28,257 nucleotides of DNA. Source: a virus. A model generated the notes under the pieces. That model did no database searches and was not told the origin of the DNA. It worked only from the letters and a program-made list of their open reading frames with translations. This document shows, piece after piece, positions 329-16,400 of the stretch. The position numbers and the translations under genes were made by a program. The number at the start of each line of letters is the position of its first letter. The stretch's first letter is position 1. The stretch lies in the IMG/VR virus record IMGVR_UViG_3300032770_000080, positions 1-28,257 of that record; one strand, 5' to 3'.

Positions 329-2904
329 ATGCCGCCACGCAAGTCTACGCCTCTCGACGCGATGTCGTTGCAGGAAAAGAAAGCGCTGCTTCAGAAGATT
401 GAGTTCATGCAGCGCATGCTGGATAGCGACAGACCGCGTGCCTGGCGCAAGATCGCGCGCGTGAAGCAGTTGCCGCCGGATGATCCCTTGCACTGCACGG
501 ATGATGGTATCGGCAAGCCATGTGGATGTAAAGGAGTTGATAACGACTACAACATCCATCTCATTATGTGCGGGAGAGGCTGGGGAAAACTTGGGTGGGT
601 GCGAACTGGCTCATTGAGCAAGCGCTCAAAGAGCCAGGCGGCATCTGGGCAGTCATCGCACCCACGTTTCGAGACGTCCGCGCGACGTGTTTTGAGGGAC
701 CGAGCGGTATCCGCAAGCAGCTCCAGCCAGGGGAGGAAGTCCAGTGGCGACGCAATGAGCTGCGCCTGGACTTGGTGAACGGCAGCATTATCTACGGATT
801 CAGTGCTGATCAGCCTGAGCGACTTCGCGGAACAAACCTGTCTGGCTGCTGGTCAGATGAATTGTCGTCGTGGAGATACCCAGAAACTTGGTACGAGGGT
901 CTCATCCCCGCCCTGCGTATTGGCAAGAAACCGCGTGTTGTCATCACTACTACCCCGCGCCCCACTCGTCTCATCAAGGATCTCACATCGCGACGTGACG
1001 GAACTGTGCACATCACGCAGGCCGCCACCTGGGAAAACGCGAAGAACCTCTCTGAGACCGCGCTGAGTGAAATGCGTGCGCGCTACGAGGGCACGCGGCT
1101 AGGTCGCCAGGAGCTGGAAGGTCAGCTGCTGGAGGACTTGGAAGGTGCGCTGTGGAATCGCGCTGATATTGATGCAGCGCGAATTCGTGAAGACCAAGTG
1201 CCTGATCTGGTGCGCATTGTGGTGGCGATTGACCCGGCCGTCACCAATAATGACGACAGTGATGAAACCGGCATTGTGGTAGCCGGGGATGACGGCAACG
1301 GACACGGCTACATCCTGGCGGATCTGTCTATGATGGGCACACCGGAAAAATGCATGAAGACGGCGGTGGCTGCCTACCACAGATATGCAGCCGATTGTGT
1401 GGTGGCTGAAGTCAACAACGGCGGTGACTATCTGGGCGCGGTGCTGCGCGCGGCAGATCCTAACGTGCCCTATCACACGGTGCGCGCGTCGCGAGGGAAG
1501 GCGATTCGGGCGGAGCCGGTGAGTGCGCTCGCGGAGCAGCATCGTTTGCACCATGTTGGGCTGTTTCCAGAGCTAGAAGATCAAATGTGCAGTTTGACCC
1601 CTGGAATCAGCAATGGGCCAGATGATCGGGTAGATGCTTGCCTAGCTCGCGGAACGCTGGTCCTGACGGAACGCGGAAACATCCCGATTGAGGATGTCCG
1701 CGTGGATGATCTAGCCTGGACACGCATGGGTTGGAAAGCGGTAACTGCCACACGATGCACACAGCGTGATGCTCGTGTTATGACCGCTGTTCTTTCTGAC
1801 GGTAGCATGCTGACTGGTACTCCTGACCATCAAATCTGGACGGAACGTGGCTGGACACGCATGGATGCTCTCGTGTGTGGTGATACACTGTCTGCATGGA
1901 CGAACCACCAGCAACAGTCATCTACAGGGGACTCCTCTATCGGAGATATCCAGATAGCCCGCAACGAGGGCATCGAGTCTACTACCAGCGACGCACATCG
2001 ACAGGTATCACCACGCTCCATCGTGACATATGGAAATATGTCAATGGCAGGGACATCCCAGCGGGGTACCACATCCACCATAAGGACGAGAATCCGTTCA
2101 ACAACGAACCGGACAATCTCATTCTCCTCTCACCCGCTGAACACACCCACATCCATCCAGGAGAGCGACCAGATCCTTCCGAGCATCTGGCTGCCGTACG
2201 TCCCCTCGCCACAGAATGGCATCGCTCCGAAGCAGGGCGTGCATGGCATCAGGACCACGGCAAGCGGATGTGGGAAGACAGAGAACCAGAGCATCAGTTC
2301 ATCTGTGAGTCATGCGGAGAAGTCTCCTGGAGTTACGTTCCAGATACTCGCTTCTGCTCTCGGAAATGCAGCAGGAGAAAAGCCGACAGCGAACACAGAT
2401 TTGAAGTACAGGTCATCTGCCCTATATGTGGACGCGAATTCTGGCAGAACAAGTATCGCTCAAAACCCGAAACGTGCTCACACTACTGTGGTGCACAGCT
2501 ACGTAAACTCCGAAAAACATGACGTATATGATCTCACGATCGAAGATGTGCATGAATTCATAGCGAACGGTGTAGTTGTCCACAACTGTGTGTGGGCCGT
2601 GATGGAGCTGCGCGGTCTCAGCACAGCGAGCTGGCTCCAGGCGTATGGCATCCAGCGCTGTGAGCAGTGCAATAAGCCCTTCAGCGCGCAGGCGAGCCAG
2701 TGCAAGCATTGCGGTGCTGAGGCGACTCTTCCCCCCTCAAAGGAGAAGGAGGAGGAGTCGCCTTTGCCCGGCAGCTGGGCGGCTATTTATGCGATGAAGC
2801 GCTGCGATAAGGGGCACGCCTATCGCGGGGAGCAGGATACTTGCCCGCGCTGTGTGTCAGACACGTTCAGCTATCTGCGCTCGATTGGCTCTCCGGTGCG
2901 ATAG
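329..2904 (+). CDS. terL: Terminase large subunit, -1 frameshift in Walker A, intein-containing precursor
   Basis: TerL is the ATPase-nuclease that cuts and pumps DNA into the prohead. ATG 329 follows AAGAGG at 318-323. The N-terminal frame runs through GRGWGK and then needs a -1 shift at 583-589 to read GRGWGKTWVGA, a complete Walker A (residues 82-88). Unshifted, the frame ends at 778 with an unrelated tail. After the shift come Walker B (SDE, D177 E178), the TTTPRP coupling motif, and the RuvC-type nuclease acids D302 (AIDPA), E361 (VVAEVNN) and D436 (DDRVDA). An intein occupies residues 438-753, directly after D436. The precursor would be 858 residues and the spliced product about 542, normal for TerL. 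The C-terminus carries two zinc-ribbon-like CxxC pairs, an unusual addition. The alternative to recoding is one missing A in the assembly. No small terminase gene is visible. Confidence 0.93.
583..637 (+). promoter_or_regulatory. Putative -1 programmed frameshift signal in terL
   Basis: Bases 583-589 are G GGA AAA in the incoming frame, a canonical X XXY YYZ heptamer. Re-pairing one base back gives GGG AAA, then ACT TGG, exactly completing the Walker A GKT. Upstream, GGGAGAGG at 572-579 resembles the internal Shine-Dalgarno that stimulates bacterial -1 shifts such as dnaX, although Gly-Arg codons also force it. Downstream, 606-612 pairs with 631-637 and 614-619 pairs with 624-629, with one A-A mismatch and an AAGC loop: 13 base pairs. 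The 16-base spacer is longer than the usual 5-9. All three components are seen in the sequence; function is inferred. Confidence 0.6.
1639..2586 (+). other. TerL intein (316 residues) with split-apart splicing domains
   Basis: The intein starts at Cys (TGC 1639) in DDRVDA|CLARGTL and ends with VVVHN|C, with Asn at 2584-2586 and Cys as the +1 extein residue. Block A is CLARGTLVLTERG, block B is GTPDHQIWT (Thr and His), block F is VYDLTIEDVHEFIANG and block G is VVVHN with the penultimate His. All residues for standard class 1 splicing are present. Joining the exteins gives DDRVDACVWAVMEL, a normal TerL nuclease motif. The N-domain (about 85 residues) and the C-domain (about 24 residues) flank a roughly 205-residue Ser/Thr-rich stretch with no homing-endonuclease motif in this frame. 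That stretch is the other-frame reading of the HNH gene at 1896-2522. Confidence 0.92.
1896..2522 (+). CDS. HNH homing endonuclease nested out of frame inside the TerL intein
   Basis: The 208-residue protein has a typical phage HNH nuclease: a short N-terminal YRGLLYRRY strand, LHRDIWKYVNG, then the beta-beta-alpha metal finger with H61 H62 K63 D64, N69 N70 and N74 L75 (HHKDENPFNNEPDNL). Two C-terminal zinc-finger-like units follow (CESC...CSRKC near 138-158; CPIC...CSHYC near 175-198), which in this family help DNA recognition. ATG 1896 lies just after an in-frame TGA at 1881, and the ribosome site is weak. The stop at 2520-2522 lies exactly where the intein C-domain resumes. The gene sits -1 relative to the intein frame, which stays open throughout, so both proteins are encoded by the same bases. 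The nuclease would cleave intein-less terL alleles. The start is less sure than the fold. Confidence 0.88.
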   Translation: MDEPPATVIYRGLLYRRYPDSPQRGHRVYYQRRTSTGITTLHRDIWKYVNGRDIPAGYHIHHKDENPFNNEPDNLILLSPAEHTHIHPGERPDPSEHLAAVRPLATEWHRSEAGRAWHQDHGKRMWEDREPEHQFICESCGEVSWSYVPDTRFCSRKCSRRKADSEHRFEVQVICPICGREFWQNKYRSKPETCSHYCGAQLRKLRKT

Positions 2905-2913
2905 TATGCTAGC

Positions 2914-3177
2914 ATGGCAGAAGAAATCACAGATGACGAACGTGCATATGCTCAGGCGGTTTTCGCTCATCAGATAGATGGCAAATCAGCATGCGAATTC
3001 TGCGGCGGACTGCATTCTCGCATGTGTCGTCGCGTGAAAGAAATTACCTATCACACGAATGGGGAACTCCGTCGCATTCGATTCTGGAGAGACGATGAAT
3101 GGGACGCTAGCGACGTTATCTGGCCGGAGGACGTGTATGACGAAGGAGAGCTAGTCAATGAGCGAGAGCAAGCCTGA
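2914..3177 (+). CDS. Small conserved-looking phage protein with CxxC-H-C zinc-binding motif
   Basis: The 87-residue protein begins 10 bases after the terL stop. Residues near 28-39 read CEFCGGLHSRMC, which can chelate zinc, followed by a basic RRVK and an amphipathic beta-rich stretch ending in an acidic WPEDVYDEGE tail. I recognise the FCGG-H-C-RVK pattern as common in small proteins beside phage terminases, but no function is known to me. No clear Shine-Dalgarno precedes ATG 2914, and translation may be coupled to terL. Its last 20 bases overlap the next gene in a different frame. Confidence 0.75.
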   Translation: MAEEITDDERAYAQAVFAHQIDGKSACEFCGGLHSRMCRRVKEITYHTNGELRRIRFWRDDEWDASDVIWPEDVYDEGELVNEREQA

Positions 3178-3325
3178 AGCCGATCCGCTGACCGCGCTGA
3201 TGCAGGGCGCAGCGATGATGCATGAAATGTATGTCTCGCTGCAGAATGCCGGTTTCACGAAAAACGAGGCTCTTGCCATTGTCATCGCGCAGATGATTAA
3301 CGGCATGAACAATCCACAGCAGTAG
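3158..3325 (+). CDS. 55-residue hypothetical phage protein
   Basis: ATG 3158 is preceded by a strong AAGGAG at 3143-3148 that lies inside the preceding gene. The product is soluble and mostly helical: a short charged N-terminus, then DPLTALMQGAAMMHEMY and an AGFTKNEALAIVIAQMI helix. The pattern of two amphipathic helices around a GFT turn is frequent in small proteins encoded near terminase and portal genes of actinobacterial phages. I know of no assigned function. Position and ribosome site argue strongly that it is translated. A role in packaging or head assembly is only suggested by location. Confidence 0.72.
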   Translation: MSESKPEADPLTALMQGAAMMHEMYVSLQNAGFTKNEALAIVIAQMINGMNNPQQ

Positions 3326-3345
3326 CAGAAAGGCAGTGCAGTATT

Positions 3346-3837
3346 ATGGCAGGTCGCGTTTACACGGCTACCTCGTACATTGTTCCCTTCACCACCACAA
3401 CCGTCACGCCTTTTATGGCTGGCTCGGTGCCTACCACGGCAACACTGGACATTCAGGCTATCCGCATCGGCTTTTACACTAGCTCTGGTGTGTCGTATCC
3501 GTCCAACGGCGCGGTGCTGTGCCAGCTCAGTCGTCTCACCGGCGCTATCGGCGGCGGCAGCAGCATCACCGCGCGCATCGCCCCGCATAACCCCAGCGAC
3601 ATCGCCAGCAACATCGGCAGTCTCGTGGATGGCAGCGCATCAATTACAGGCACCACACAGGGCGTCAACCTGTGGCAGCAGTCGCTGCCGTTCACCGCTG
3701 GCGCGAACTGGGCGGAATGGGTGACGCCAGGCAGCGAATGGCGCATTTCCGCTAACACCGAATTCGGCATCTTCCTCACCACGCAGTCTGCTGGTACGGG
3801 GACAGATGTTGTGATGGAACTTACCTGGGTCGAGTAA
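3346..3837 (+). CDS. Putative minor virion protein, beta-rich
   Basis: The 163-residue protein is rich in Ser, Thr, Gly and Ala with alternating hydrophobic strands and no signal peptide or membrane segment. It begins MAGRVYTATSYIVPF and ends in a DVVMELTWVE strand, as a jelly-roll or immunoglobulin-like sandwich would. The tract GGGSSITARIAPHNPSD and a GVNLWQQSLPFTAG strand give no catalytic pattern. ATG 3346 follows AAAGG at 3329-3333 at a rather long spacing. It opens the block of appendage-like genes that ends at 13093. Structural role is inferred from composition and context only; a head fibre or baseplate decoration is possible. Confidence 0.6.
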   Translation: MAGRVYTATSYIVPFTTTTVTPFMAGSVPTTATLDIQAIRIGFYTSSGVSYPSNGAVLCQLSRLTGAIGGGSSITARIAPHNPSDIASNIGSLVDGSASITGTTQGVNLWQQSLPFTAGANWAEWVTPGSEWRISANTEFGIFLTTQSAGTGTDVVMELTWVE

Positions 3838-3865
3838 GAAACGGGACAGGTAACAGGCGGCGCGA

Positions 3866-3970
3866 ATGAGCACATATAGCTTGATGGACGGTGTGTCCGG
3901 ACGACCTGGTGTGGGGTCGTCCGGCATCCATCTGCTGCGCTTTCACACTTACACCCTGAAGGTCCAGTAA
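3866..3970 (+). CDS. 34-residue ORF, apparent truncated duplicate of the next gene's N-terminus
   Basis: The reading frame MSTYSLMDGVSGRPGVGSSG matches the opening of the next protein (MTIWSLMDGG...RPGVGSSG) at residue and base level, including a shared GGTGTGGGGTCGTCCGG stretch. It then diverges into a short unrelated tail and stops with TAA immediately followed by the ATG of the 3971 gene, in the same frame. It may be the leftover 5' end of a deleted paralogue or a small expressed leader. No good Shine-Dalgarno is seen before it. I favour remnant over functional gene. Confidence 0.45.
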   Translation: MSTYSLMDGVSGRPGVGSSGIHLLRFHTYTLKVQ

Positions 3971-5206
3971 ATGACTATCTGGAGCTTGATGGATGGCGGT
4001 CCGCAGGGAGGTGTCCTGCCAGATCGTCCCGGTGTGGGGTCGTCCGGTACCCAGCCGCCCGCCACGGCTGTCTCTTACTCTGGTAATTACATCGCCGGGC
4101 TTGTTTTCCAGGTCACTCAGGGCGGCATGTGGTTCCAGGGATATCGATGGTGGGTCGCCAATTCCAATCAGGACACTGCGGCGCAGAAATTCGCGTTGTG
4201 GAATCTGGCCGCCGCCAATGGCTCAGGTGCTGCGAGCAACATCCCGACCGGCACTATCACATCCGGGGCGCTCACTGCTGGGCAGTTTAATACTGTCATG
4301 CTTTCCTCACCGATCGCGCTGACCCCGAACACTCCCTATCTCGCCACCACTGGTGGCGCGCTGACCCATGGATTCCCCGACACCACAAACCAGTTCGGCT
4401 CCGGTAATCTATACACTAGCGGAATCACGAATGGTCCCCTGGTCGCGTACAGCAGCAGCGGCGGATCAAGTCCGATTAGCCCCGGTTCTTTCCCGCAGCA
4501 GCCATTCACTACGGCTGGCAGCGATCCATCGGTAACGTTCCCGAACTTCAATAACGCCAACGATCTGCTCTGGATCGACGTCATCGTCAGTGATCAGCCA
4601 CCTGGCGGAGTACTGTCATATCGAGCGTGGCCAAATCTGGTAACACCGTTCCCGAGCAATCTGACATCCCCCACCGACACGACTGGGTACACCCTGGCCT
4701 TCGAGTTCTCCCTGACTCAGGCGTGCACGCTGGACAGGATCTGGCATTATTCACCGCCCACGGTGACTGGCCTGCCGTCGCGCTGCCTGATCTGGGATGT
4801 AGCCACTCAGCTCGCGGTGTCCGGCACCGACAATAGCTCGCCGTCCTGGTCAGGGGCGGCGGGATCTGGATGGGTGTCTTGCGACTACACCAGTTCCGGT
4901 GTGACTTTGAATGCATTGCACGCCTACAAGGTATCAACGTTCAGCGGCCCAGGAGTCACGTGGTTTGGTGCCAATGCTGATATTTTCGGTAACGGCGGTC
5001 CTGACAGCGCGGGGTTCACGAACGGGCCGCTGGTCATCCCAAACAATGCGAGCGCCTCGATCGGGCAGCAGAGCTGGCGACAGGTGTCGTTCGGCTACCC
5101 GAACGCATCATCAGATCCAGAGGCCGACTGGATAGACGTGGAAGTCACTCCTGCCGCCACGCCGCCGGTCACGCAGATCGCCTACTCAATGCGGATGATG
5201 CCTTAA
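3971..5206 (+). CDS. Virion protein with two DUF4082-like domains
   Basis: The 411-residue protein has two tandem beta-sandwich units, roughly residues 28-207 and 225-400. Each runs from a strand with a YRWW or IWHY turn, through a short LWN or IWDV strand, to a late TPNTPYLATT or LNALHAYKVST strand, and closes with LLWIDVIV or ADWIDVEV. That layout matches DUF4082, a carbohydrate-associated fold found in actinobacterial secreted proteins and phage appendages. No catalytic motif is seen, so a binding or spacer role is more likely than an enzyme. ATG 3971 abuts the preceding TAA. It is followed by a GGAGGG ribosome site for the next gene. Confidence 0.62.
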   Translation: MTIWSLMDGGPQGGVLPDRPGVGSSGTQPPATAVSYSGNYIAGLVFQVTQGGMWFQGYRWWVANSNQDTAAQKFALWNLAAANGSGAASNIPTGTITSGALTAGQFNTVMLSSPIALTPNTPYLATTGGALTHGFPDTTNQFGSGNLYTSGITNGPLVAYSSSGGSSPISPGSFPQQPFTTAGSDPSVTFPNFNNANDLLWIDVIVSDQPPGGVLSYRAWPNLVTPFPSNLTSPTDTTGYTLAFEFSLTQACTLDRIWHYSPPTVTGLPSRCLIWDVATQLAVSGTDNSSPSWSGAAGSGWVSCDYTSSGVTLNALHAYKVSTFSGPGVTWFGANADIFGNGGPDSAGFTNGPLVIPNNASASIGQQSWRQVSFGYPNASSDPEADWIDVEVTPAATPPVTQIAYSMRMMP

Positions 5207-5225
5207 CTCGCGCGGAGGGAGCACT

Positions 5226-7067
5226 ATGCGTGTTGCTGCTGTCCCGGTGAAGATCGGCACCGGGATACTTCCCCACCTGGCTGTTCCGACAGCTACCGGG
5301 CAGCAGCAGCTCCTGACTGCTTTCGCCGCAGCGGGTCCATGGATTGCGCATAGTCTGGGTACTGCTTCTACCTCCGTGACAATAGGCACGGTGGCAGTCG
5401 GCGACGTCCTGGTCCTCGCGCTGGGCTGCGGCGGATTTGGCCCCGGTGGAGTCAGCGCATTGTCTTCAGGTGTATCCGGGGGTGGAGTCAGCACTTGGCA
5501 GCGCGCAACTGGATACTTGTGGACTAGCGCCCCCACGCTGACTGAGATCTGGTGGGGAGAAATCACCACTTTGTCTCCGACGCCGGTCACAGTCAACAAT
5601 CCTAGCCTCGCATCAGAATATAATCGATTGTGGATTGCAGAATTTTCTGCGACCGGCTCGGATCTGGTCTGGGAGATTGCTGCCGTGACACCCGCGTCAG
5701 CTAGTTCTGGTTCCTCTGCGCTAGGTCCCACCACATCAATCGTTACTTATCCCCTGCTGACTGGCACTGGGCTGTACGTCGGCGGCAACATAGGTTTGTT
5801 CGGTACCTTGTCCGGCACGGCAACTGGATGGACGTTCACCACCATCGATAGCCATTTTATGGTCGCAGACAACACATCTGTGACTGATGGTACCGTCACT
5901 GGGACTGACACTCAAAGTGACACGATGAATCCGGTGTCCGCGCTGTTCACCGTCACCGGCATTATCGAGCCGCTGTCAATTCCGTCCACTGCACTGCCCG
6001 GCGGATACGCTACCCAGCTGTACCCCTCGATGAACACTGTAGGCGTCGAGGGACTGTCTACAGAAGCGACGACTTTGACTGCTGTCGGCGGTGTTCCGCC
6101 GTACACGTGGACAATCACGTCGGGATCGCTGCCTGCTGGGCTGTCCCTGTCATCTGCTGGACTGATCAGTGGCACGGCCAGCGTCGCCGGGACATCATCG
6201 TTCACCGCGCAGGTCACCGATTCCGCCAGCAGCACTGTATCGGCTGGCTTCTCTATCACGATCGCCGCCGCTCCCGCAGTAGTATTCAACGGAGCCTACC
6301 CCGCTGGGCCGACTCAGTGGAATAATCCGGGTACCGACTCGCAGCTGGCTCTCGGGGCGATCATGACGCCGCTGTCGATGAACCTGAACGTCTGGGGTCC
6401 AGTCACCAGTCCCCAGGAAACCGCCACCTCAACCGTTTGGTCGACACGGAACTGGACGGTGTATTTCAACGCCGATGAACCATCGGGGCAAATCGGCCAG
6501 GTGACCGCCTACCCGAACAGCGCCCTGTACCCAATCACATTCACCTGGAACACGTACAGCTACATCCTGACCGGCTGGGATGTCACCATGCCGCCCTGGG
6601 ATGCGTCGATCATCGCGTCGGCCGCCTACGACAACTTCATCCCAGCGGGCGACGTGATTGCTGGTCCCGCTGGCGCTGGCGGGCAGGTGCCGCACGTGAA
6701 TGAAATTATGCATCACTACGCGCACATCAATCGAGGTGGATCAGACGCTCCGATAGCGTTCTACGGCGCTGTGCAATTCGGCGGATACACCGTCAACGGC
6801 ATCCCCCTCCCGGTGACCTACTGGAATGTGTCCATCGGATCGACTGCCGCGTTTTTTGATCAGTGCTCCCCATCCGGGGTGTCCGTCAACTGGACCATGT
6901 CAGCTGGTGCCATCGACTATCTGGCGATGCTGAACTGGCTGGTTGCCGAGGGATACATCTCGTCCACTAGCAGTCTGACCGGGATGGGTAATGGGTACGA
7001 GGTCTGCAACACCAGCGGCGTCACACAGCCGTTCCAGATGAACAACTGGTGGTGCCAGGCGGGATGA
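5226..7067 (+). CDS. Virion-associated putative GH12-like glycosidase with Ig-like domain
   Basis: The 613-residue protein starts after GGAGGG at 5214-5219. Residues about 40-250 form the same beta-sandwich module (GDVLVLAL...WWGEI...LWIAEFS) seen at the start of the 8558 and 9314 products. Residues about 287-349 are a putative-Ig (He_PIG) domain: GGVPPYTWTITSGSLPAGL then GLISGTASVAGTSSFTAQV. The last 230 residues resemble glycoside hydrolase family 12: SAAYDNF, then VNEIMHHYAH with E493 as candidate nucleophile, and near the end GNGYEVC with E592 as candidate acid/base. Family 12 cleaves beta-1,4-glucans and xyloglucan. The 100-residue spacing and both Glu contexts fit, but overall similarity is weak to the eye. 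The gene overlaps the apiosidase-like gene by ATGA. Confidence 0.55.
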   Translation: MRVAAVPVKIGTGILPHLAVPTATGQQQLLTAFAAAGPWIAHSLGTASTSVTIGTVAVGDVLVLALGCGGFGPGGVSALSSGVSGGGVSTWQRATGYLWTSAPTLTEIWWGEITTLSPTPVTVNNPSLASEYNRLWIAEFSATGSDLVWEIAAVTPASASSGSSALGPTTSIVTYPLLTGTGLYVGGNIGLFGTLSGTATGWTFTTIDSHFMVADNTSVTDGTVTGTDTQSDTMNPVSALFTVTGIIEPLSIPSTALPGGYATQLYPSMNTVGVEGLSTEATTLTAVGGVPPYTWTITSGSLPAGLSLSSAGLISGTASVAGTSSFTAQVTDSASSTVSAGFSITIAAAPAVVFNGAYPAGPTQWNNPGTDSQLALGAIMTPLSMNLNVWGPVTSPQETATSTVWSTRNWTVYFNADEPSGQIGQVTAYPNSALYPITFTWNTYSYILTGWDVTMPPWDASIIASAAYDNFIPAGDVIAGPAGAGGQVPHVNEIMHHYAHINRGGSDAPIAFYGAVQFGGYTVNGIPLPVTYWNVSIGSTAAFFDQCSPSGVSVNWTMSAGAIDYLAMLNWLVAEGYISSTSSLTGMGNGYEVCNTSGVTQPFQMNNWWCQAG

Positions 7068-8545
7068 CCTCCTACATCACCGGGATCTCGGCCAGTACCA
7101 GCACGCAGGCGGGGCATTTTATCGACAACCTGGGTCAGCCGAAGATGTATGTGACTGACTGGGCGCAGGGGATGCTCACCAACATCGGTCGATACTCCTC
7201 CGGTAACTGGCAGTCCGACATCGACACCTATTTCTCCTACCGGAGCGCGCAGGGCCTCACCGTCCACCACGACGTCATGATCAACTGCGTGGACGGGGCA
7301 GCCAATCTCGCAACGGGGGGAACCTGGGACGGGGTGGCACCGTTCAACAGCGGCGGTGATCCCACCACCGGGCTGAACAATACGTTCTGGACTCGCGTCG
7401 ATTACATGATCAGCTCGGCGGCCAGCCACGGTATCACCGTCGCCTGGTCGATCGGGCTCGGTTACAACTGGCCAACCGGCAGGCCGTATGGCGGGTGGAC
7501 GACAGCTCAATTCACCGCGTTCTGCACGGCGATCGGTGCTCGATATCCGTCGTCGACTCATCCGAACATTCTGTGGCTGTTCGGTGACGACCAGGATCCC
7601 GGTGTCACCTCCATCGAAGACAACTGGGACACCATGCTCACCGCGCTGCGCGCAAACGGGGCGAATCAGCCGGTCAGTGTCGAGTGGGAGACCGAGACCA
7701 CCTCCCGATATGATCCGAACACGGGCTCGCCAACCTCCCCGAACGCGGCGACGTGGGGAGTGAACAACGCAGCCTACGAAATCGTGTACACCTACCAGAT
7801 CGCGTACTGGATGATGGAGTTCGCCTGGAAGGATGTCACCTTCGGCTCACCCGCCCTGCTGACCCCGGTGCAGATCGACGGGGAGTGGTACCAGGGATCC
7901 GGCAGCAGCTACTACGCCCCTACCGATCGGCAGATGCGACAGGAGTGGTGGTGGACGCTGACGTCCGGCGGTCGAGGATTCATGGCGGAGGCGAACAACG
8001 TCTACGCGGCGGATAACTCCAGCTGGCTGTCCAACGCGCAGACTGACTGGGTGTTCGCCAACAACATGGGCAACATTGCTATCGCGTTCGCATCCTGGAC
8101 TAACTGGTATCTGCTGGTGCCAGACTTGTCGTCCGCGTTTATTACTGCCGGGCGAGGCACTCACGCCGCCTTCACCACTGCCCAGTACGGTGAGACGTTC
8201 ACCAACACCTGGGTCACGGCAAGCATCACCCCAGACGGCACTCTGGCCGTTGCCTATCTGTCGAATCACACGACCATCACCTGCACCACTTCGATGCTGG
8301 CAGCTGGATGGACAGCCCAATGGGTGGATCCTATCACTTGCGCGACGTCTAGTGCCGGATCCGGACCCACATTCAATTCCACCGCCAAGGGCAGCAACTC
8401 CCAGGGTGATCCGGACTGGGTACTCCTCTTCCAGGCACCATCCGCTGCCACTGTGACACCATCTGCCGTGGCAGGACCAGCAGGGATCGCGCCGACTGTG
8501 ATCCCCGTCCGCGCCGGGCGACGGAACGCAGGTCATAGTCGTTAA
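7064..8545 (+). CDS. Apiosidase-like (DUF4038/GH140-type) glycoside hydrolase
   Basis: ATG 7064 overlaps the upstream TGA (ATGA), indicating translational coupling; GTG 7049 would add five residues. The 493-residue product follows the DUF4038 TIM-barrel pattern: HFIDNLGQPKMYVTDWAQGM opening, DIDTYFSYRSAQGLTV, the FNSGGDPTTGLNNTFWTRVDYMI loop and helix, HGITVAWSIGL, then HPNILWLFGDDQDP with the catalytic-acid region at residues 174-176, and SVEWETET. GH140 enzymes remove apiose from rhamnogalacturonan II; related proteins act on other glycans. A C-terminal beta-rich domain (residues about 370-485) may bind sugar. The last residues, RRNAGHSR, recur in the next gene. On a phage, a likely job is degrading host surface or environmental polysaccharide. 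Confidence 0.68.
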   Translation: MTSYITGISASTSTQAGHFIDNLGQPKMYVTDWAQGMLTNIGRYSSGNWQSDIDTYFSYRSAQGLTVHHDVMINCVDGAANLATGGTWDGVAPFNSGGDPTTGLNNTFWTRVDYMISSAASHGITVAWSIGLGYNWPTGRPYGGWTTAQFTAFCTAIGARYPSSTHPNILWLFGDDQDPGVTSIEDNWDTMLTALRANGANQPVSVEWETETTSRYDPNTGSPTSPNAATWGVNNAAYEIVYTYQIAYWMMEFAWKDVTFGSPALLTPVQIDGEWYQGSGSSYYAPTDRQMRQEWWWTLTSGGRGFMAEANNVYAADNSSWLSNAQTDWVFANNMGNIAIAFASWTNWYLLVPDLSSAFITAGRGTHAAFTTAQYGETFTNTWVTASITPDGTLAVAYLSNHTTITCTTSMLAAGWTAQWVDPITCATSSAGSGPTFNSTAKGSNSQGDPDWVLLFQAPSAATVTPSAVAGPAGIAPTVIPVRAGRRNAGHSR

Positions 8546-8557
8546 AGGAGATCTGCT

Positions 8558-9259
8558 GTGGCGTTCGGGGCAACCGGGGCATGGCTGTATTCAATGAGCG
8601 CTGCCCTGACCGTCAGCAACCAGGGCGTCGGGGATCTGCTGATCGTAGAGGTTATCAACTTCTCCAATAGCACCGTCTGGGCTACCGGCCTGACCGGCGG
8701 GGGCGCCACCTGGACAATGGCCGGGGTTAAGTTCTCAGGAACGACCAACAACTACGCCGCGTCGGTTTTCCTCGGCACTGTTACCTCCACCGGCGCCGGG
8801 ACGGTCACGCCCACCTGGTCCGGAACCGCTCCTGGTACATATTCGCTCACCGGTCATGAATTCACCTCCAGCGTCGGGAACTGGGCGTTTGATCAGCAGG
8901 CAAATCTGGATAGTGCTGGCACGCTGAGCTGGCCGTCGCTGACTCCCGTGGTGAACGGTGAACTGTATTTCGGGATGTCCGGCAGTTTCAGCGCCTCTGC
9001 TGGGACCACCGCCGGATACGTCTACAACAGCGACGCTAATGGTGACGGAGAAGCATATAATCTGTCTTGCCCGAGCGGCACCGGGACGTTCCCCGTGTGG
9101 GCCGGGACCGTCGGCTCCAACGGGATGGTTTTCGGGATTATGATCCTGGTCAAGGAAGTCGCTCTGACATCTCCTCTGGTCGACAGTCCCGTTCCAGTGA
9201 ACATACCCGTCATTCTGGCTGGTCGTGCGGGCTGGCGGAACGCCGGGCATAGTCGTTAA
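8558..9259 (+). CDS. Minor virion protein, beta-sandwich appendage module
   Basis: GTG 8558 follows AAAGGAG at 8545-8551. The 233-residue protein is a single copy of the module shared with the 5226 and 9314 products: VGDLLIVEVINF, TGGGATWTMAG, an AASVFLG strand, and a TYSLTGHEFTS strand followed by a NLDSAGTLSWPSL region. It ends VILAGRAGWRNAGHSR, nearly the same last residues as the upstream hydrolase. No catalytic motif, signal peptide or membrane segment is seen. A structural role in a fibre or baseplate decoration is inferred from composition, paralogy and position. Confidence 0.62.
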   Translation: MAFGATGAWLYSMSAALTVSNQGVGDLLIVEVINFSNSTVWATGLTGGGATWTMAGVKFSGTTNNYAASVFLGTVTSTGAGTVTPTWSGTAPGTYSLTGHEFTSSVGNWAFDQQANLDSAGTLSWPSLTPVVNGELYFGMSGSFSASAGTTAGYVYNSDANGDGEAYNLSCPSGTGTFPVWAGTVGSNGMVFGIMILVKEVALTSPLVDSPVPVNIPVILAGRAGWRNAGHSR

Positions 9260-9313
9260 GAGGAGAATTTGCACGTCCCGTAGGGGAGGTCACATAGCCG
9301 TCAGGGGGGTCGC

Positions 9314-12300
9314 ATGGCTGTAACCCAGGTCGGCACCCCCAGCGCCACCGTTTACACGACCACCAATGGCACCAACACGCCGACGCTTGCCTGGTCGGGG
9401 ACACAGCCGCGTACTGCTGGTGACATTCTCGTCCTTGTTGTCACCGCTGCGGCGACCACTAGCGTCACTGCCCCAGCTACTCCAGCTGGCTGGACTGCTG
9501 GTCCAGCAGTTGGGAACGCCGCTACTGCGCACGCTTACGTCGCCATTTTCTGGAAGATTGCGACCAGCGGTGACGCGGTGCCGTCAATTTCGGTCACTAC
9601 CAGCGGCACCACACGCTGCGGTTTCAGTCTGTTTGAGCTGACCGGCGCAGAAAACATTCTTTCACCCGTCGATTCGATGGGCACGTACGCATCCGGTTCC
9701 AGCTCAGCGACCATTGCGTCAATGACGGTCACGAGCAGCGCGAACGTTCGCTATTCGGGTGAGTATGGTTTTGCCGCCTTTGCTCGGGAAAGCAGCGCTG
9801 CCACAACCGCCACGTATACAGCGGGCAGTGGCTGGACAAACTTCAGCAACGACGGCTCAACATCAAGTCGTGATAAAAACGCCGTCGACTACACCACCAG
9901 CGCTCCCACTATTGGCGTTACTCTATCAGATGCAGCAACCATCACCAGTGCCGGGACCGCGTATGCGGCCGGTGCGCTGATAGCGTTCACGCCTCCGCAC
10001 GATCCCGGTCCGGTACTGGTGCCGTGCAGTCAGCCACCTGGAGTGCGCGTCAGCTACGCGATGGCTGGCTACGCGATGGCCTCGGTCATTTCGTCCGCGC
10101 CTGTCATCATCACTCCGGCACCGCTGTATCCGCTTACTCAGCCGGTGGATGGATCACGTCGCACAGCTCGTCCGCCACGTGGCATTGTCCGAGGTATTGC
10201 TGGCGCAGCGCTCTTCACGTCGCTGATCGGTCCGCCGCTCACGCCGCTGCACGCGCCAATAGCCAGCACTGCGCGCCAGGCTCGTCCGCCTGCGGGTCAC
10301 GTTATCAAGCGGACGGGTACATTCAGCGGTGTTGGACCCGCTGTCACGCCACTGCACAAGCCTGTTACATCTGCAGTGCGCGTGCTGCCGCCGCATGGTA
10401 CAGTAACAAAGCGCAGCGGGCAGTTCAGCGGTACAGGTCCACAGCTCAAGGCGCTCAGCGGTCCTGTTAAGGCGACGCAGCCTCTTCCGCCACGCGGTGT
10501 TACCTATAGTCGTACAGGTACGTACAGCGGGATAGGTCCAGCGCTCACTCCGCTGCACGCGCCTGTGCGAGCTGTGCCTGCTAAACTGCCAGGCGGACGC
10601 ACATACACCCTGCGTGTTGTGCAGGTGACAGCTCCCGCAGTTAGTTCGACACTGTATCCGCTGCACGCACCTGTTACCTCAGTAGTGCGACGTCTGCCGC
10701 CAGCTGGTCGCAACATCAGTCGCACAGGCACATACAGTGGCGTCGGTCCAGCGCTGCGTCCCTTGACGTCACCTGTCAAGTCACGTCGACCTCTGCCTCC
10801 GCGTGGCGTTGCATACAGTCGCGCGGGTATTTACAGCGGCACAGGTCCAAAGCTGCGTCCTCTTAATGCTCCAGTGCGCGTACGTCAGCAGCCTCCGACG
10901 CTACCGGGTCGCGCATTTACGTTCAGCTATCTGCCACTGCTGATTGGATCTCCTGCACCCCCGCTCACACAGCCTCGCGGTGCGCGTGTCACGTATCTGC
11001 ACAGCGGACACGTCCAGTCGACTCCAATCGCACTGCCCGCGCTTGCCCCGACGATCGGGCCGCAGCTCACCCCGCTGCACGCGCCCGTACGCGCAGCTCT
11101 GCCCGCAGCGCATCAGCGTGGCTACACCACGACTCACAGTGGCGTATACAGCGGGACGGGTCCAGCTGTTACTTCGCTCAAAACGCCTGTCAAGGGACAG
11201 CCCGCGCAGCAGTTGCGCGGTCATGCAATCACTACGCCAGCACATGCCGCTGTAATTGCACCGACATCTGGACCGCAGCTCTATCCGCTGCACCAGCCGA
11301 TTCGCAGTCAGCTCGCGCTCCCGGCACCTGGTCGTGCGGCGGCTATCACGGCGATTCTTTTCTATGCGTCGACGTCGACAAGCGGACCAGCTATCTCGCC
11401 GAGGACGTCACCGTGGCGAGCTGTCATTCCGGCATCCATCCGAGGTGGCACGAGTCACGGATCGCAGGGAACGTTTTCCGGTACTGGTGCTACATTTAAG
11501 TCGGCTTCACAGCCAGCGGGCGTGCTGATTGCACTTTTGCGCACGGGGCACGTTCAGTCGTCTTACATCACATCGCCACCCATCGCCACTGGTCCCGTTA
11601 TCCCGCCTCGAGCACAGCCATGGCGAGCAGCAATACCAGCACCAATCCGAGGTGGCTGGAGTCGCAGCGCTACTGGACTATTTTCCGGTGTCGGCCCGGG
11701 ACTTATCCCGCTCAAGACACCAGTCAGGGCACGTCAGCCACTCCCCGGTTCAGGACGTGTCCTAGGTGCATATCGCGCTATTGCACAGCTACCCGCACCA
11801 ACATCTGGACCTCCGCTTACACCTCTGCATCAGCCAGTTCGCGGACGTTTGCCGTTGCCTCCGCCAGGTCGCGCGGCTACGATGGCTCTTCTGGGATTTA
11901 TCCAGACTGCACCGGCAACTGGACCTGCAATTCCTCCGCGTGCGCAGCCAGTGCGTGCCATAATCCCAATCCCAGCCCGAGGCGGATGGACTCGCAGCAG
12001 CGTTGGCACGCGCAGCGGTGTCGGATCAGTCGTTACTGCGCTCACAGGTCCGATACAAGAACGACGACCACTGCCACCACGAGGACGAATCTTCGGAATC
12101 GTCCGTGTTACTGCACAGGCACCGTCTCCGAGTGCTGGACCGACGCTGTACCCGCTGCGTCAGCCGATCCGCGCTCGACAGCCTCTGCCTAGTCCTGGTC
12201 GTGCAGCTACGATGTCGCTCCTGGGAGTCACTCCAGGTGTGGTGTCTTCCGCATCAATTTCGCCAAGGGCGACGCCATGGCGAGCGAGTATTCCCGCAGC

Positions 12301-13093
12301 AATTCGTGGAGGAAATACTCGCAGCAATCGTGGCATCTACAGTGGTCAAGGACCCGCTCTCGCACCATTGCACGCTCCGATTACTATCCGTCGCTCACTG
12401 CCGTCCGAGGGTCGGATCCTCGGCATTGCTCATCCGGCACCGCCTCCCGCACCGACATCCGGACCATCTGTCTATCCGCTCCGTCAGCCAGTGCGTGCGC
12501 CTATTCCGCAGCACATTCACGGTGGATACACACGCAGCAGCAAAGGCATCCGCAGCGGAATTGGTCCGGCACTACGTCCGCTGACAGCTCCGCTGCGTAC
12601 GAGCTGGCCACTGCCACCAGCAGGTCACGCACAGGGTACGCATCGAGGCATTTACAGTGGAACGGGTCCTGCGACCACACCGTTGCATCGTCCAGTCACT
12701 TCTATTGTACGGATTCAGCCCCCAGCAGGCAAATCCATCACACGTGTCGGTGCATATAGCGGGCAAGGTCCAGCGCTTCGTCCGCTCACCAGTCCGATGG
12801 TCGCCAGGCATCCACTGCCACCACGCGGTCACATCCTCGGTGTCTACACAGTCATCGTACTCCCGCCACCACCGACGCCTGGTCCGCCGATCCCACCGCG
12901 CGCAGTGCCAATCCGAGCAACGATTCCGCAGCCTATTCGTGGTGGCTGGACGCGCACGAGCGGACCTTACGTTCCGCCCATTCCGCCGCCACCCGCGCCA
13001 GGAGCGTTCGTCGTTAATCTTGGTTCTCCGTATCTAAGCTGGCAGACGGGACCAGTGAATTCCAGCTGGATGACGGGAGTGATAAACACATAA
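9314..13093 (+). CDS. Giant repeat virion protein, beta-sandwich head plus Pro/Arg-rich repeats
   Basis: The 1259-residue protein starts at ATG 9314 after AGGGGGG. Residues 1-235 are a third copy of the appendage module (AGDILVLVVTAAAT...FSLFELTGAENI...AAGALIAFTPP). Residues about 265-1215 consist of about 27 degenerate repeats of about 35 residues built on GPALxPLxxPVRxxxPLPPxGR followed by GxYSG. The repeats are strongly basic and proline-rich, without Cys. The C-terminus is a short hydrophobic VVNLGSPYLSWQTG segment. I recognise similar PLxxPVRARxP repeats from environmental phage structural proteins but know no function. An extended rod binding polyanions such as DNA, teichoic acid or capsule is one reading. 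Its stop overlaps the next start (TAATG). Confidence 0.7.
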   Translation: MAVTQVGTPSATVYTTTNGTNTPTLAWSGTQPRTAGDILVLVVTAAATTSVTAPATPAGWTAGPAVGNAATAHAYVAIFWKIATSGDAVPSISVTTSGTTRCGFSLFELTGAENILSPVDSMGTYASGSSSATIASMTVTSSANVRYSGEYGFAAFARESSAATTATYTAGSGWTNFSNDGSTSSRDKNAVDYTTSAPTIGVTLSDAATITSAGTAYAAGALIAFTPPHDPGPVLVPCSQPPGVRVSYAMAGYAMASVISSAPVIITPAPLYPLTQPVDGSRRTARPPRGIVRGIAGAALFTSLIGPPLTPLHAPIASTARQARPPAGHVIKRTGTFSGVGPAVTPLHKPVTSAVRVLPPHGTVTKRSGQFSGTGPQLKALSGPVKATQPLPPRGVTYSRTGTYSGIGPALTPLHAPVRAVPAKLPGGRTYTLRVVQVTAPAVSSTLYPLHAPVTSVVRRLPPAGRNISRTGTYSGVGPALRPLTSPVKSRRPLPPRGVAYSRAGIYSGTGPKLRPLNAPVRVRQQPPTLPGRAFTFSYLPLLIGSPAPPLTQPRGARVTYLHSGHVQSTPIALPALAPTIGPQLTPLHAPVRAALPAAHQRGYTTTHSGVYSGTGPAVTSLKTPVKGQPAQQLRGHAITTPAHAAVIAPTSGPQLYPLHQPIRSQLALPAPGRAAAITAILFYASTSTSGPAISPRTSPWRAVIPASIRGGTSHGSQGTFSGTGATFKSASQPAGVLIALLRTGHVQSSYITSPPIATGPVIPPRAQPWRAAIPAPIRGGWSRSATGLFSGVGPGLIPLKTPVRARQPLPGSGRVLGAYRAIAQLPAPTSGPPLTPLHQPVRGRLPLPPPGRAATMALLGFIQTAPATGPAIPPRAQPVRAIIPIPARGGWTRSSVGTRSGVGSVVTALTGPIQERRPLPPRGRIFGIVRVTAQAPSPSAGPTLYPLRQPIRARQPLPSPGRAATMSLLGVTPGVVSSASISPRATPWRASIPAAIRGGNTRSNRGIYSGQGPALAPLHAPITIRRSLPSEGRILGIAHPAPPPAPTSGPSVYPLRQPVRAPIPQHIHGGYTRSSKGIRSGIGPALRPLTAPLRTSWPLPPAGHAQGTHRGIYSGTGPATTPLHRPVTSIVRIQPPAGKSITRVGAYSGQGPALRPLTSPMVARHPLPPRGHILGVYTVIVLPPPPTPGPPIPPRAVPIRATIPQPIRGGWTRTSGPYVPPIPPPPAPGAFVVNLGSPYLSWQTGPVNSSWMTGVINT
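10110..12960 (+). repeat. About 27 tandem degenerate protein repeats, mean period near 105 nt
   Basis: Counting occurrences of GPxLxPLxxP and its variants gives about 27 units. In the second half they fall into a higher-order A-B-C pattern of about 107 residues. Type A is IPPRAQPxRAxIPxPxRGGWTRS then GxxSG; type B is PLPPRGRIxGIxxxxAxxP; type C is LYPLRQPVRxxxPLPxPGRAATM then LLG. Base-level similarity between units is low while the residue motif persists, so the array is old and under protein-level constraint, not a recent expansion. Confidence 0.8.
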
Positions 13094-13466: not shown

Positions 13467-16400
13467 GTGGCGCGTCGCAGTGCGATTATCGCCGCCACTA
13501 AGGCGATGCCAGGCGCGGCGCGTCCCACGCCTGCGCCGCAAGGCGGCACGTACTACGGCGCGCTCAGCCCGCTGGTGCAGCAGCTCAATAACGAGCGCGG
13601 ATACGCGAATAGCAACGGCCCGTTCCTGCCACGACCCGAGCGCACGTTCACAGAAGGTGCGTTCGGACCGTTCAGTCCGATACTCCCCGTCCCGGTGGAT
13701 GCGCCACCGGAGGGAGCGGATCAGCCAGATCCACGACTGTATGAGTATCAAGTTGGCTGGAACCTGCCGGTGGGGCAGCCGGGGACGGAGGGACTGAAAC
13801 TTGCGGACTTCAGTACGCTGCGCACTCTGGCTAACTTGTATTCTGTTGCTCGCACGTGCATTCAGATACGCAAGTCAGAAATCCGCGGACTCGACTGGGA
13901 CATCGTCCCCACGCATGAGGCCGCGAAGGCGTACCAGAATGATCATGACGCTATGCGAGACTTCGGCGAACGCAGGGCGAAGGCGGTCAAGTTCTTCCGA
14001 CACCCGGATCCCGATTTCTTCAACTTCGGGTCCTGGCTGGACACCTTGCTGGACGAGGTGTTCGTCTACGATGCACTGTCCCTGGTCTTGCGACCCAAGT
14101 GGGGTAAGGGACTTGGACGAGGTCTGCTTGGTAGCGACCTTGACTGCATTGAACTTATCAGCGGTCCCACGATTCGTCCGCTGGTGGGTATGCACGGCGA
14201 AATTCCGCGTCCGCCTTGCTACAGCGAAGACACAGAAATTCTTACGCGGGATGGCTGGACGCTCTTCAGTGAACTGAAGGGTACGGAAGAGGTTGCGACT
14301 CGCTCCAAAGATGGAGTGTTCGAGTGGCAGCAGCCGACTCACTATGTGAATGTAGCGTACACCGGACCGATGGTGCAGTTCCACGGTCGTTCAATTGATT
14401 GCCTGGTGACTCCAGATCATCGAATGCTTACAACCGTTGGTCCAGATGACTGGGCCTGGAAGCGTCGAGTACGTGATGAGGATGGTCACTTTTGCAGAAC
14501 TACAGACGGCAAAAACGGGGTCCAGCGCGAGTGGATAACATCTGCTCAACGTCTGCTGGAGCGGAAGCAGGCTGGGAACAAAGCTGGGATTAGAACAAAA
14601 AGGGATGATCGACTCGTAGCGACTAGTGTGTGGCATGGACGTGAGCTGACGCAGGTAACGTTCAGTTCAGCGGGGCAGATCTTCACGTGGGATGAACCGC
14701 ACGATGACGTGCATATGACTTCCGGACCAGATGTGCCTGTGGATGTCCGAGACAATCCGATGACAATGACAGGCGATCAGTTTGCAGCCTTCATGGGCAT
14801 GTATTTGTCTGAAGGCGGTCTGGTCTACAATGCCGCGAAGTACGATTACAAGTTCACCATCAGCCAGACTGCACAAGGGAAAGGTCTCACAGAATACGGG
14901 GAGCTGATCAAGGATCTCTTCGGCATTCCGCATGCTGGTCGCGCAGGATGGACCATCTATCGCAAGGTTATGTGGCGATATCTGCACCAGTTCGGTTGCG
15001 CGAAAGAAAAGTTCGCGCCACCCGAAGTTCTGGAATTGTCTAAGCGACAGCTAGAGATATTCCTGGAACACTACTGGCTAGGCGATGGACACTATGCATA
15101 TGGCCAGAAGATTATCGCAACTTCCAGCCAGCGGATGGCAGGCAATCTGCAGGAAGTCATCCAGAAGCTGGGGTACTCAGCATCCGCGGTATTCAGAAAA
15201 GATGGATGCTGTCGGTTGGGTATCCGGAAGACCGCTTATCCCGAATACAATGCGCATGAGGCGGAATACTCGGGTCGCGTCTACTGTGTGACTGTACCGA
15301 ACGGAGTGGTGTATGTCCGGCGAAACGGACATTCGGTATGGTCTGGTAATTCTCCGGCATATCAGCAGTTTTTGTACGGAGTACCCAGAAGCGACTATAT
15401 GACGCTTATGACGCAACGTGACATAGAAGAGGGCGGTCTGAGTGATGCGGAAGTAGCCAGCTTCCGTAAAGATCAGCTGCTGTACTTGCCCATGCTGCGT
15501 CAGCGCTGGACGCCGTACGGGATGCCGCCTATTGAGCGTGCGCTTATTCCGGTGATGTCCGGCTTGCAGAAGCAGGGATTTCAGCTTGACTATTTCAGGG
15601 AGGGGACCGTACCTGCGGTCTACATTTCACCTGGTGATCCCAACATTACTCCAAATCAGGTGCGCGAGCTGCAAGACGCGCTGAACGCAATCGCGGGGGA
15701 TCCAGCCTGGCACCACAAGATTATTGTCCTTCCGCCAGGCAGCAAGGTGGAACCGCAGCGACCGGTGGATTTGTCGGATCAGTTTGATGAAATGGTCATC
15801 ACGCAGGTGTGCATGGCCTTTGACGTCAATCCAATTGAGCTGGGCATTCTGCCGAATGTGAGCAGCACGGCGTCACCGTTTGCTGCGAAAGAAATGGCAC
15901 AGGCGTCCAGGAACATCCATGAGCGGGTTTCTACGAAACCCACTCTGAAATTCCTGTGCGCCATTTTTGACGACATCCTGCATCGCGTGTGCGGGCAGGA
16001 TGACATGAAGTTCACCTTTGAGGGTCTGCAGGAGGAAGCAGATCAAGCTGCCGTGACGGATCTGCTGGTGAAGCAGGTGCAGTACGGCATCCGCAGCGTG
16101 GATGAGGCGCGTGGGGAAATTGAGCTGCCGCCCTGGGGTGAGCAGGAAACCAGCGAGCCGGTGGTCTTCACGCAGATGGGTCCGGTGCCGTTCAAAATGG
16201 CACTGCCGCTCATGGAAGCGCAGATGCAGGGGAGTGCGGGGCAGGGTCAGCAGCAGGGCAGCAATAAGCCCACCAGCACCACAGGCAGAGGCGATCAGTA
16301 CGGCGGACCGGGACGTCCGCGTCACAATACACCTATCCCCGCTCCCAGTACCAAACCTTCCGGAGGCGAATTGCCTCCGGAACGTCACGGCACGGGTGCA

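Follow-up and report, generated by a model that had tools for sequence, protein, structure and literature searches.

What do two overlapping genes, set between the terminase and portal genes of an uncultured phage, do for the virus? An earlier note on this locus had read their products as glycoside hydrolases of the GH12 and apiosidase (GH140) types, which may degrade either a host capsule or a plant-derived polysaccharide, and serve as depolymerases or as auxiliary metabolic genes. Depolymerases determine which encapsulated bacteria a phage is able to infect. The known tail-spike depolymerases are mostly trimeric beta-helices, which are carried on the virion, hydrolyse glycan before adsorption, and are swapped in modular cassettes.

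A gene pair among packaging and head genes

The DNA analysed (the window) is the 28,257-base IMG/VR virus record IMGVR_UViG_3300032770_000080. On its plus strand, an intein-containing terminase gene is followed by genes for small proteins, a DUF4082 protein, ORF1 and ORF2, and then by genes for the 8558 protein, the 9314 repeat protein, a 112-aa protein and the intein-containing portal. A maturation protease/scaffold-like protein lies 3' of the portal, followed by 22542-23825, probably the capsid gene judging from its position. The cassette with ORF1 and ORF2 comprises the following features (loci other than the window are given by L numbers).

3346..3837, plus strand: 163-aa cassette protein, also upstream of the apiosidase gene in L001 and L138
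3971..5206, plus strand: DUF4082 protein (Pfam 1e-8); its L138 homolog (phmmer 1.1e-86) is directly upstream of the apiosidase gene
5226..7067, plus strand: ORF1, 613 aa, ATG start; N-terminal beta-rich module, He_PIG Ig-like domain and GH12-like domain
7064..7067, plus strand: ATGA, shared by the stop of ORF1 and the start of ORF2
7064..8545, plus strand: ORF2, 493 aa from ATG; predicted PF13204 TIM barrel, C-terminal beta domain and tag RNAGHSR
8558..9259, plus strand: 233-aa 8558 protein, homologous to the domain N-terminal to the apiosidase in the L140 and L148 fusions (phmmer 1.7e-63 and 1.7e-12)
9314..13093, plus strand: 1259-aa 9314 protein; N-terminal module with a homolog in L138 (1.8e-88) and a long GPxLxPLxxPVRAxxPLPPRG repeat region

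The two genes are consecutive and share the ATGA that the earlier note had pointed out; through this overlap their translation is probably coupled. We used the ATG at 7064 as the start of ORF2, while the ORF list gives a longer version from a GTG at 7049.

Both inteins show further features. The terminase ORF (568-2904) carries its intein at about 1642-2590, and a 208-aa HNH endonuclease ORF (1896-2522, PF13392 3.3e-13) is nested in it at a frame offset of 2. The intein frame also stays open across the HNH ORF, so that the endonuclease occupies an overlapping frame inside the intein. In the portal ORF (13467-18794, 1775 aa), an apparent second intein is present at about 14210-15360, and the ORF continues past it through minor-head, NUDIX-like and ParB-like segments in one long fused frame.

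The C-terminal domain of ORF1 resembles GH12 enzymes

ORF1 divides into three parts, the last of which contains the two candidate catalytic residues. All features are on the plus strand.

5313..6011: N-terminal beta-rich module, about residues 30-262; aligns with L161 and L163, no Pfam match
6066..6263: He_PIG Ig-like domain, residues 281-346 (Pfam PF05345 1.8e-10)
6282..7064: GH12-like domain, residues 353-613; homologs in L151, L158, L159, L161, L163 and L142
6702..6704: codon of E493 (VNEIM), predicted nucleophile; aligns with the nucleophile of GH12 and does not vary among the phage homologs
6999..7001: codon of E592 (GYEVC), predicted acid/base; invariant and aligned to the GH12 acid/base

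The motifs VNEIMHHY (E493) and GNGYEVC (E592), on which the GH12 assignment had been based, are thus found behind the Ig-like domain as described. A third acid, the aspartate D469 of an AAYD motif, is also invariant in the alignment of phage GH12-like domains.

Taken alone, the ORF1 domain is insufficient for the assignment. Its 261 residues gave no Pfam match even at E = 10, the GH12 HMM scored 2.7 bits on it, under the best shuffles and not significant, and single-sequence hhalign of ORF1 against GH12 reached significance only after homologs had been added. The link runs through L151. ORF1 matches the protein at L151:4177-5154 with 8.4e-12, and on this homolog the GH12 HMM scored 34.2 bits, against a best of 12.6 among 2000 shuffles. 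The L151 protein in turn matches rhizobial proteins (6e-8), of which two of six tested belong to PF01670 at about 2e-12, as does Bradyrhizobium L016. Further homologs were found after L151 (L158, L159, L161 and L163). With homologs included, the hhalign probability against the GH12 alignment was 96.2% and then 97.6% (3.3e-12), and the phage GH12-like profile matched the PDB entry of the GH12 xyloglucanase NopAA (6sdu) at 1e-12. The curated cut-off of PF01670 is reached neither by ORF1 or its C-terminal domain nor by L151, L159, L161, L163 and L142, and we therefore call the domain GH12-like.

An AlphaFold model of the domain (mean pLDDT 50, pTM 0.59) points in the same direction. The best 50 Foldseek rows were all GH12, and the best VIA match was 6sdu (Z 13.4, rmsd 3.2, 175 aligned); GH11 xylanases, which have a similar jelly roll, appear in the VIA list from rank 38 down, with Z below GH12. 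By alignment and predicted model, the C-terminus of ORF1 is a GH12-type beta-jelly roll with one helix that keeps both catalytic glutamates, and E493 and E592 align with residues that face one cleft in GH12.

NopAA (GunA, PDB 6SDU) is a GH12 xyloglucanase with the catalytic pair Glu117/Glu216 (PMC7303141). It has the same jelly roll, and the two glutamates are spaced by 99 residues in both proteins; identity over the structural alignment is about 19%. Unlike NopAA, the ORF1 domain belongs to a phage protein, is preceded there by an Ig domain, and has an insertion ahead of NEIM.

Two other approaches were abandoned. Matches of the ORF1 C-terminus alone to engineered macrobodies/maltodextrin-binding protein in the PDB were at chance level, and a two-motif scan of DNA (EIM...G[YF]E) returned 120 stretches with no GH12 among them.

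ORF2 is predicted to be an apiosidase-like TIM barrel

ORF2 carries the LWLFGDDQDP motif and the DUF4038 pattern noted before, and it matches the Pfam family Apiosidase PF13204 (= DUF4038) with 9.6e-16 and 58.7 bits (cut-off 26.5). All five records tested pass this cut-off. A five-sequence phage profile matched the solved GH140 apiosidases 8t9w (3.6e-21) and BT1012 (2.1e-16). The AlphaFold model, for which five sequences were used, has low confidence overall (mean pLDDT 45) and is better in parts of residues 90-200; with it, GH140 structures lead in Foldseek (8t9w 8.4e-13) and come first in VIA (3kzs, Z 16.3, rmsd 8.3, 266 aligned). At this low confidence, the closest folds are 8t9w, 5msy, 3kzs and 4qfu. 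Profile and model thus suggest that the PF13204 domain of ORF2 folds into an apiosidase-like TIM barrel resembling that of GH140. The jelly roll and the barrel proposed for the two proteins were both recovered, at low to moderate confidence. Scans of genome contigs with ORF2 returned no relative.

The active-site pair of BT1012 is Asp187 and Glu284 (PMC4032388). Two positions of ORF2, both on the plus strand, correspond to it.

7589..7591: codon of D176; aligns with BT1012 Asp187, unchanged across 13 phage homologs and the aligned cellular relatives
7877..7885: codons of D272-G273-E274 on predicted beta-7; D272 or E274 is at or adjacent to the position of GH140 Glu284

The invariant acid aligned to Asp187 is D176, not D175 as originally numbered. 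The second acid is less clear. In the 13 phage homologs, the D272 column holds Asp in 10 and Asn in three, and E274 is present only in ORF2 among the phage family. When beta-7 is read without gaps from Pro-Val, the Asp of 'GDG' meets Glu284; the MAFFT columns are one or two residues off. A total loss of the second GH140 acid in the relatives had been considered and was dropped once cellular proteins were added, with the 'GDG' Asp matching Glu284 in the gapless reading.

The unsettled position of this acid in ORF2 and the Asn in three relatives suggest that some PF13204 phage members may be binders only. This bears on the possibility that the proteins, or at least the PF13204 domain, are receptor-binding pseudo-enzymes, glycan-binding folds of a fibre without catalysis. 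Substitution of Glu284 by Asp or Asn in the phage homologs would agree with this, as would the fibre-like fusion of apiosidase domains to long repeats. It is at odds with the invariance of D176, the retention of both D272 and E274 in ORF2, and the invariance of the GH12 glutamates in all aligned phage homologs. Such conservation of acids is not expected of a decayed enzyme, and we regard loss of catalysis as improbable.

The phage proteins form a clade outside GH140

In a tree of 21 sequences, the phage proteins group together with full support (100/100), and their sister is a DUF4038 protein from Rhodococcus (100/99). The solved apiosidases BT1012 and 8t9w make up a separate clade with a gut-phage scaffold (100/100). 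The HPRG and FNMFQSGH motifs, signatures of GH140 beta-5 and beta-6, are absent from the phage proteins and DUF4038 relatives, which have a YTY-type beta-6 motif in common. ORF2 does share the TIM barrel, the C-terminal beta domain and the GxD acid on beta-4 (Asp187 = D176) with the GH140 apiosidases BT1012 (5MSY/3KZS) and 8T9W; where these have Glu284, its phage relatives have Asp or Asn. Of the GH140 assignment, the apiosidase fold thus stands, while these sequence comparisons do not support strict membership. Because of the separate clade, the absent motifs and the Asp/Asn at Glu284, the proposed action on apiose or rhamnogalacturonan II (RG-II) is unsupported as well.

The cellular relatives suggest a different substrate. 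Three of five cellular PF13204 relatives inspected, a small sample from plasmids only, are located in exopolysaccharide (EPS) clusters (Agrobacterium, Roseateles and Rhodovastum), next to polysaccharide pyruvyl transferase, flippase or glycosyltransferase genes; the other two are not beside such genes. This indicates exopolysaccharide rather than RG-II. The cellular DUF4038 proteins, from EPS clusters and Rhodococcus plasmids, differ from the phage proteins in being stand-alone genes, and those of the EPS clusters keep the beta-7 Glu (FFLxES). As the nearest cellular relatives identified lie largely in EPS biosynthesis clusters, the plant-polysaccharide alternative raised in the earlier note is the weaker one and the host-exopolysaccharide alternative the stronger.

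The pair recurs in divergent phages

In L142, a GH12-like gene (3084-5426) is directly upstream of an apiosidase-like gene (5660-12094). Its product combines an N-terminal module, Ig domains and a GH12-like domain (47.6 bits against 14.6 for the best shuffle). In L151, the GH12-like gene (4177-5154) is 1.7 kb upstream of the apiosidase-like gene (6863-8197). The order GH12-like, then apiosidase-like, is therefore found in three divergent phages, which bears out the treatment of the pair as a unit; identity of ORF2 to its relatives is about 38-47%. L161 and L163 have the module-Ig-GH12 order seen in ORF1.

The partnership is not obligate, as a GH12-like neighbour is missing from ten other apiosidase loci within the DNA stretch examined. 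The two proteins could then be unrelated neighbours, independent fibre domains swapped into the cassette with no joint substrate. The predominance of apiosidase loci without a GH12-like gene fits this, and so do L161 and L163, where the GH12-like domain occurs without an apiosidase in the stretch examined, but the ATGA overlap and the same order in the divergent L142 and L151 do not. Independent swapping is in our judgement conceivable, if rather unlikely.

Gene context and fusions suggest a virion location

In the window, the cassette is flanked by the terminase and portal genes. In L142, the apiosidase gene is followed by a head-completion-like protein (weak match) and a tail tube, and in L158 and L159 the GH12-like gene adjoins a head-tail connector. 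The L163 GH12 protein has a 120-aa stretch, 71% identical, in common with the neighbouring PHROG tail fibre. Five loci (L003, L004, L005, L142 and L148) have the apiosidase domain fused to long repeat regions. In L140, its fusion partner is a homolog of the 8558 protein. These fusions are evidence that the separate proteins encoded in the window are parts of one assembly. Descent of the N-terminal modules in ORF1, 8558, 9314 and L003-L005 from one ancestor had no hhalign support and is not claimed.

Several further features of the cassettes were observed. The C-terminal tag RNAGHSR is common to ORF2 (8477-8545) and the 8558 protein (9180-9259), with 22 of 24 nucleotides identical. Cassette proteins of L138 (10410-11195, 5750-6997 and 7001-8434) also end in short tags such as ASHSR; YSMRMMP ends both DUF4082 proteins, and the L138 apiosidase ends in YSMRRC. 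Tags common to different cassette proteins are possibly a docking or processing signal. The repeats beside the apiosidase (9314-13093 in the window; L003, L004, L005, L142 and L148) are long, imperfect and unrelated in sequence, and occupy an equivalent position; units seen are GPxLxPLxxPVRAxxPLPPRG, ATGSLTLGGTA, AGLAAATGTAQPA and ATENDSAxxxxRKK.

Neighbouring genes vary between loci. Just upstream of the L001 cassette (1712-6338) are glycosyltransferase and methyltransferase-like genes and a GDP-mannose 4,6-dehydratase (PF16363 2.4e-124), for which modification of a virion or host surface sugar is possible. Next after the L138 apiosidase comes a beta-helix protein (8451-10400, PF13229 3.5e-7), which places a second fold resembling depolymerases at the same position of the cassette. 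An integrase (14498-16171, phrog_1 2.5e-32) is encoded near the GH12-like tail protein on the 98.7-kb contig of L163, which is probably a provirus and might allow its host to be identified.

Could infected cells instead make and export the enzymes, enabling the host to break down plant or soil polysaccharides such as xyloglucan or pectin, with nothing carried on the particle? In favour of this, the GH12-like protein of L151 begins with a stretch like a signal peptide, as would suit a secreted enzyme, and has a Pro-Ser linker, similar to one in L158 and L159; among solved GH12 structures, the closest relative is a xyloglucanase (PMC7303141). ORF1 and ORF2 themselves have no obvious signal peptide in their sequences, and both lie among head and packaging genes. 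This structural-gene position, together with the repeat and tail-fibre fusions of the relatives, leads us to favour a virion-borne depolymerase and to consider auxiliary metabolic genes an improbable explanation.

We thus propose, with a probability of roughly 0.6, that ORF1 and ORF2 are structural-module genes for two virion-borne glycan-degrading domains that clear host exopolysaccharide before adsorption. The virion location is inferred from where the genes lie, from fusions and from domains shared with tail fibres; the low to moderate confidence of the predicted models (mean pLDDT 45 and 50) counts against the proposal. Anchoring of the enzymes in a fibre complex of the tail or neck would fall to the beta-rich module and the Ig domain of ORF1, together with the neighbouring 8558 and 9314 proteins (tag, repeats). 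Cleavage of a beta-glucan-type backbone, with the retaining double-displacement mechanism, would be the part of the GH12-like domain, and the PF13204 domain would trim or cut a second linkage with D176 and the beta-7 acid D272 or E274. The particle would then strip host exopolysaccharide ahead of adsorption.

A bolder version would make the pair a co-inherited two-enzyme virion system, kept across the window, L142 and L151 and acting on one beta-glucan-containing exopolysaccharide of soil bacteria, with a phage PF13204 clade that uses the beta-7 Asp as catalytic acid and so forms a new glycoside hydrolase family. This we offer tentatively and consider doubtful.

Relation to known depolymerases and significance

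The proposed likeness to tail-spike depolymerases is virion-borne glycan hydrolysis in swappable cassettes. Tail spikes are mostly beta-helices, whereas ORF1 and ORF2 would combine a jelly roll with a TIM barrel; the L138 cassette adds a beta-helix beside the apiosidase. GenBank phage records gave no match to ORF1, ORF2 or a GH12 query, and one gut scaffold encodes a GH140-like protein, which groups with BT1012 and 8t9w. The literature searched contained no paper connecting DUF4038 to phages, and GH12 on a phage tail was not described in any title or abstract found. Phage depolymerases as such are known; as far as we found, a pair of GH12-like and apiosidase-fold enzymes in a phage has not been described before.

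The labels 'apiosidase' or 'GH140' on viral PF13204 genes, when taken as plant-pectin auxiliary metabolism, can mislead. If the proposed reading is true, a GH12-like enzyme joins the virion toolbox, which hints at beta-glucan-type exopolysaccharides on the hosts of uncultured phages.
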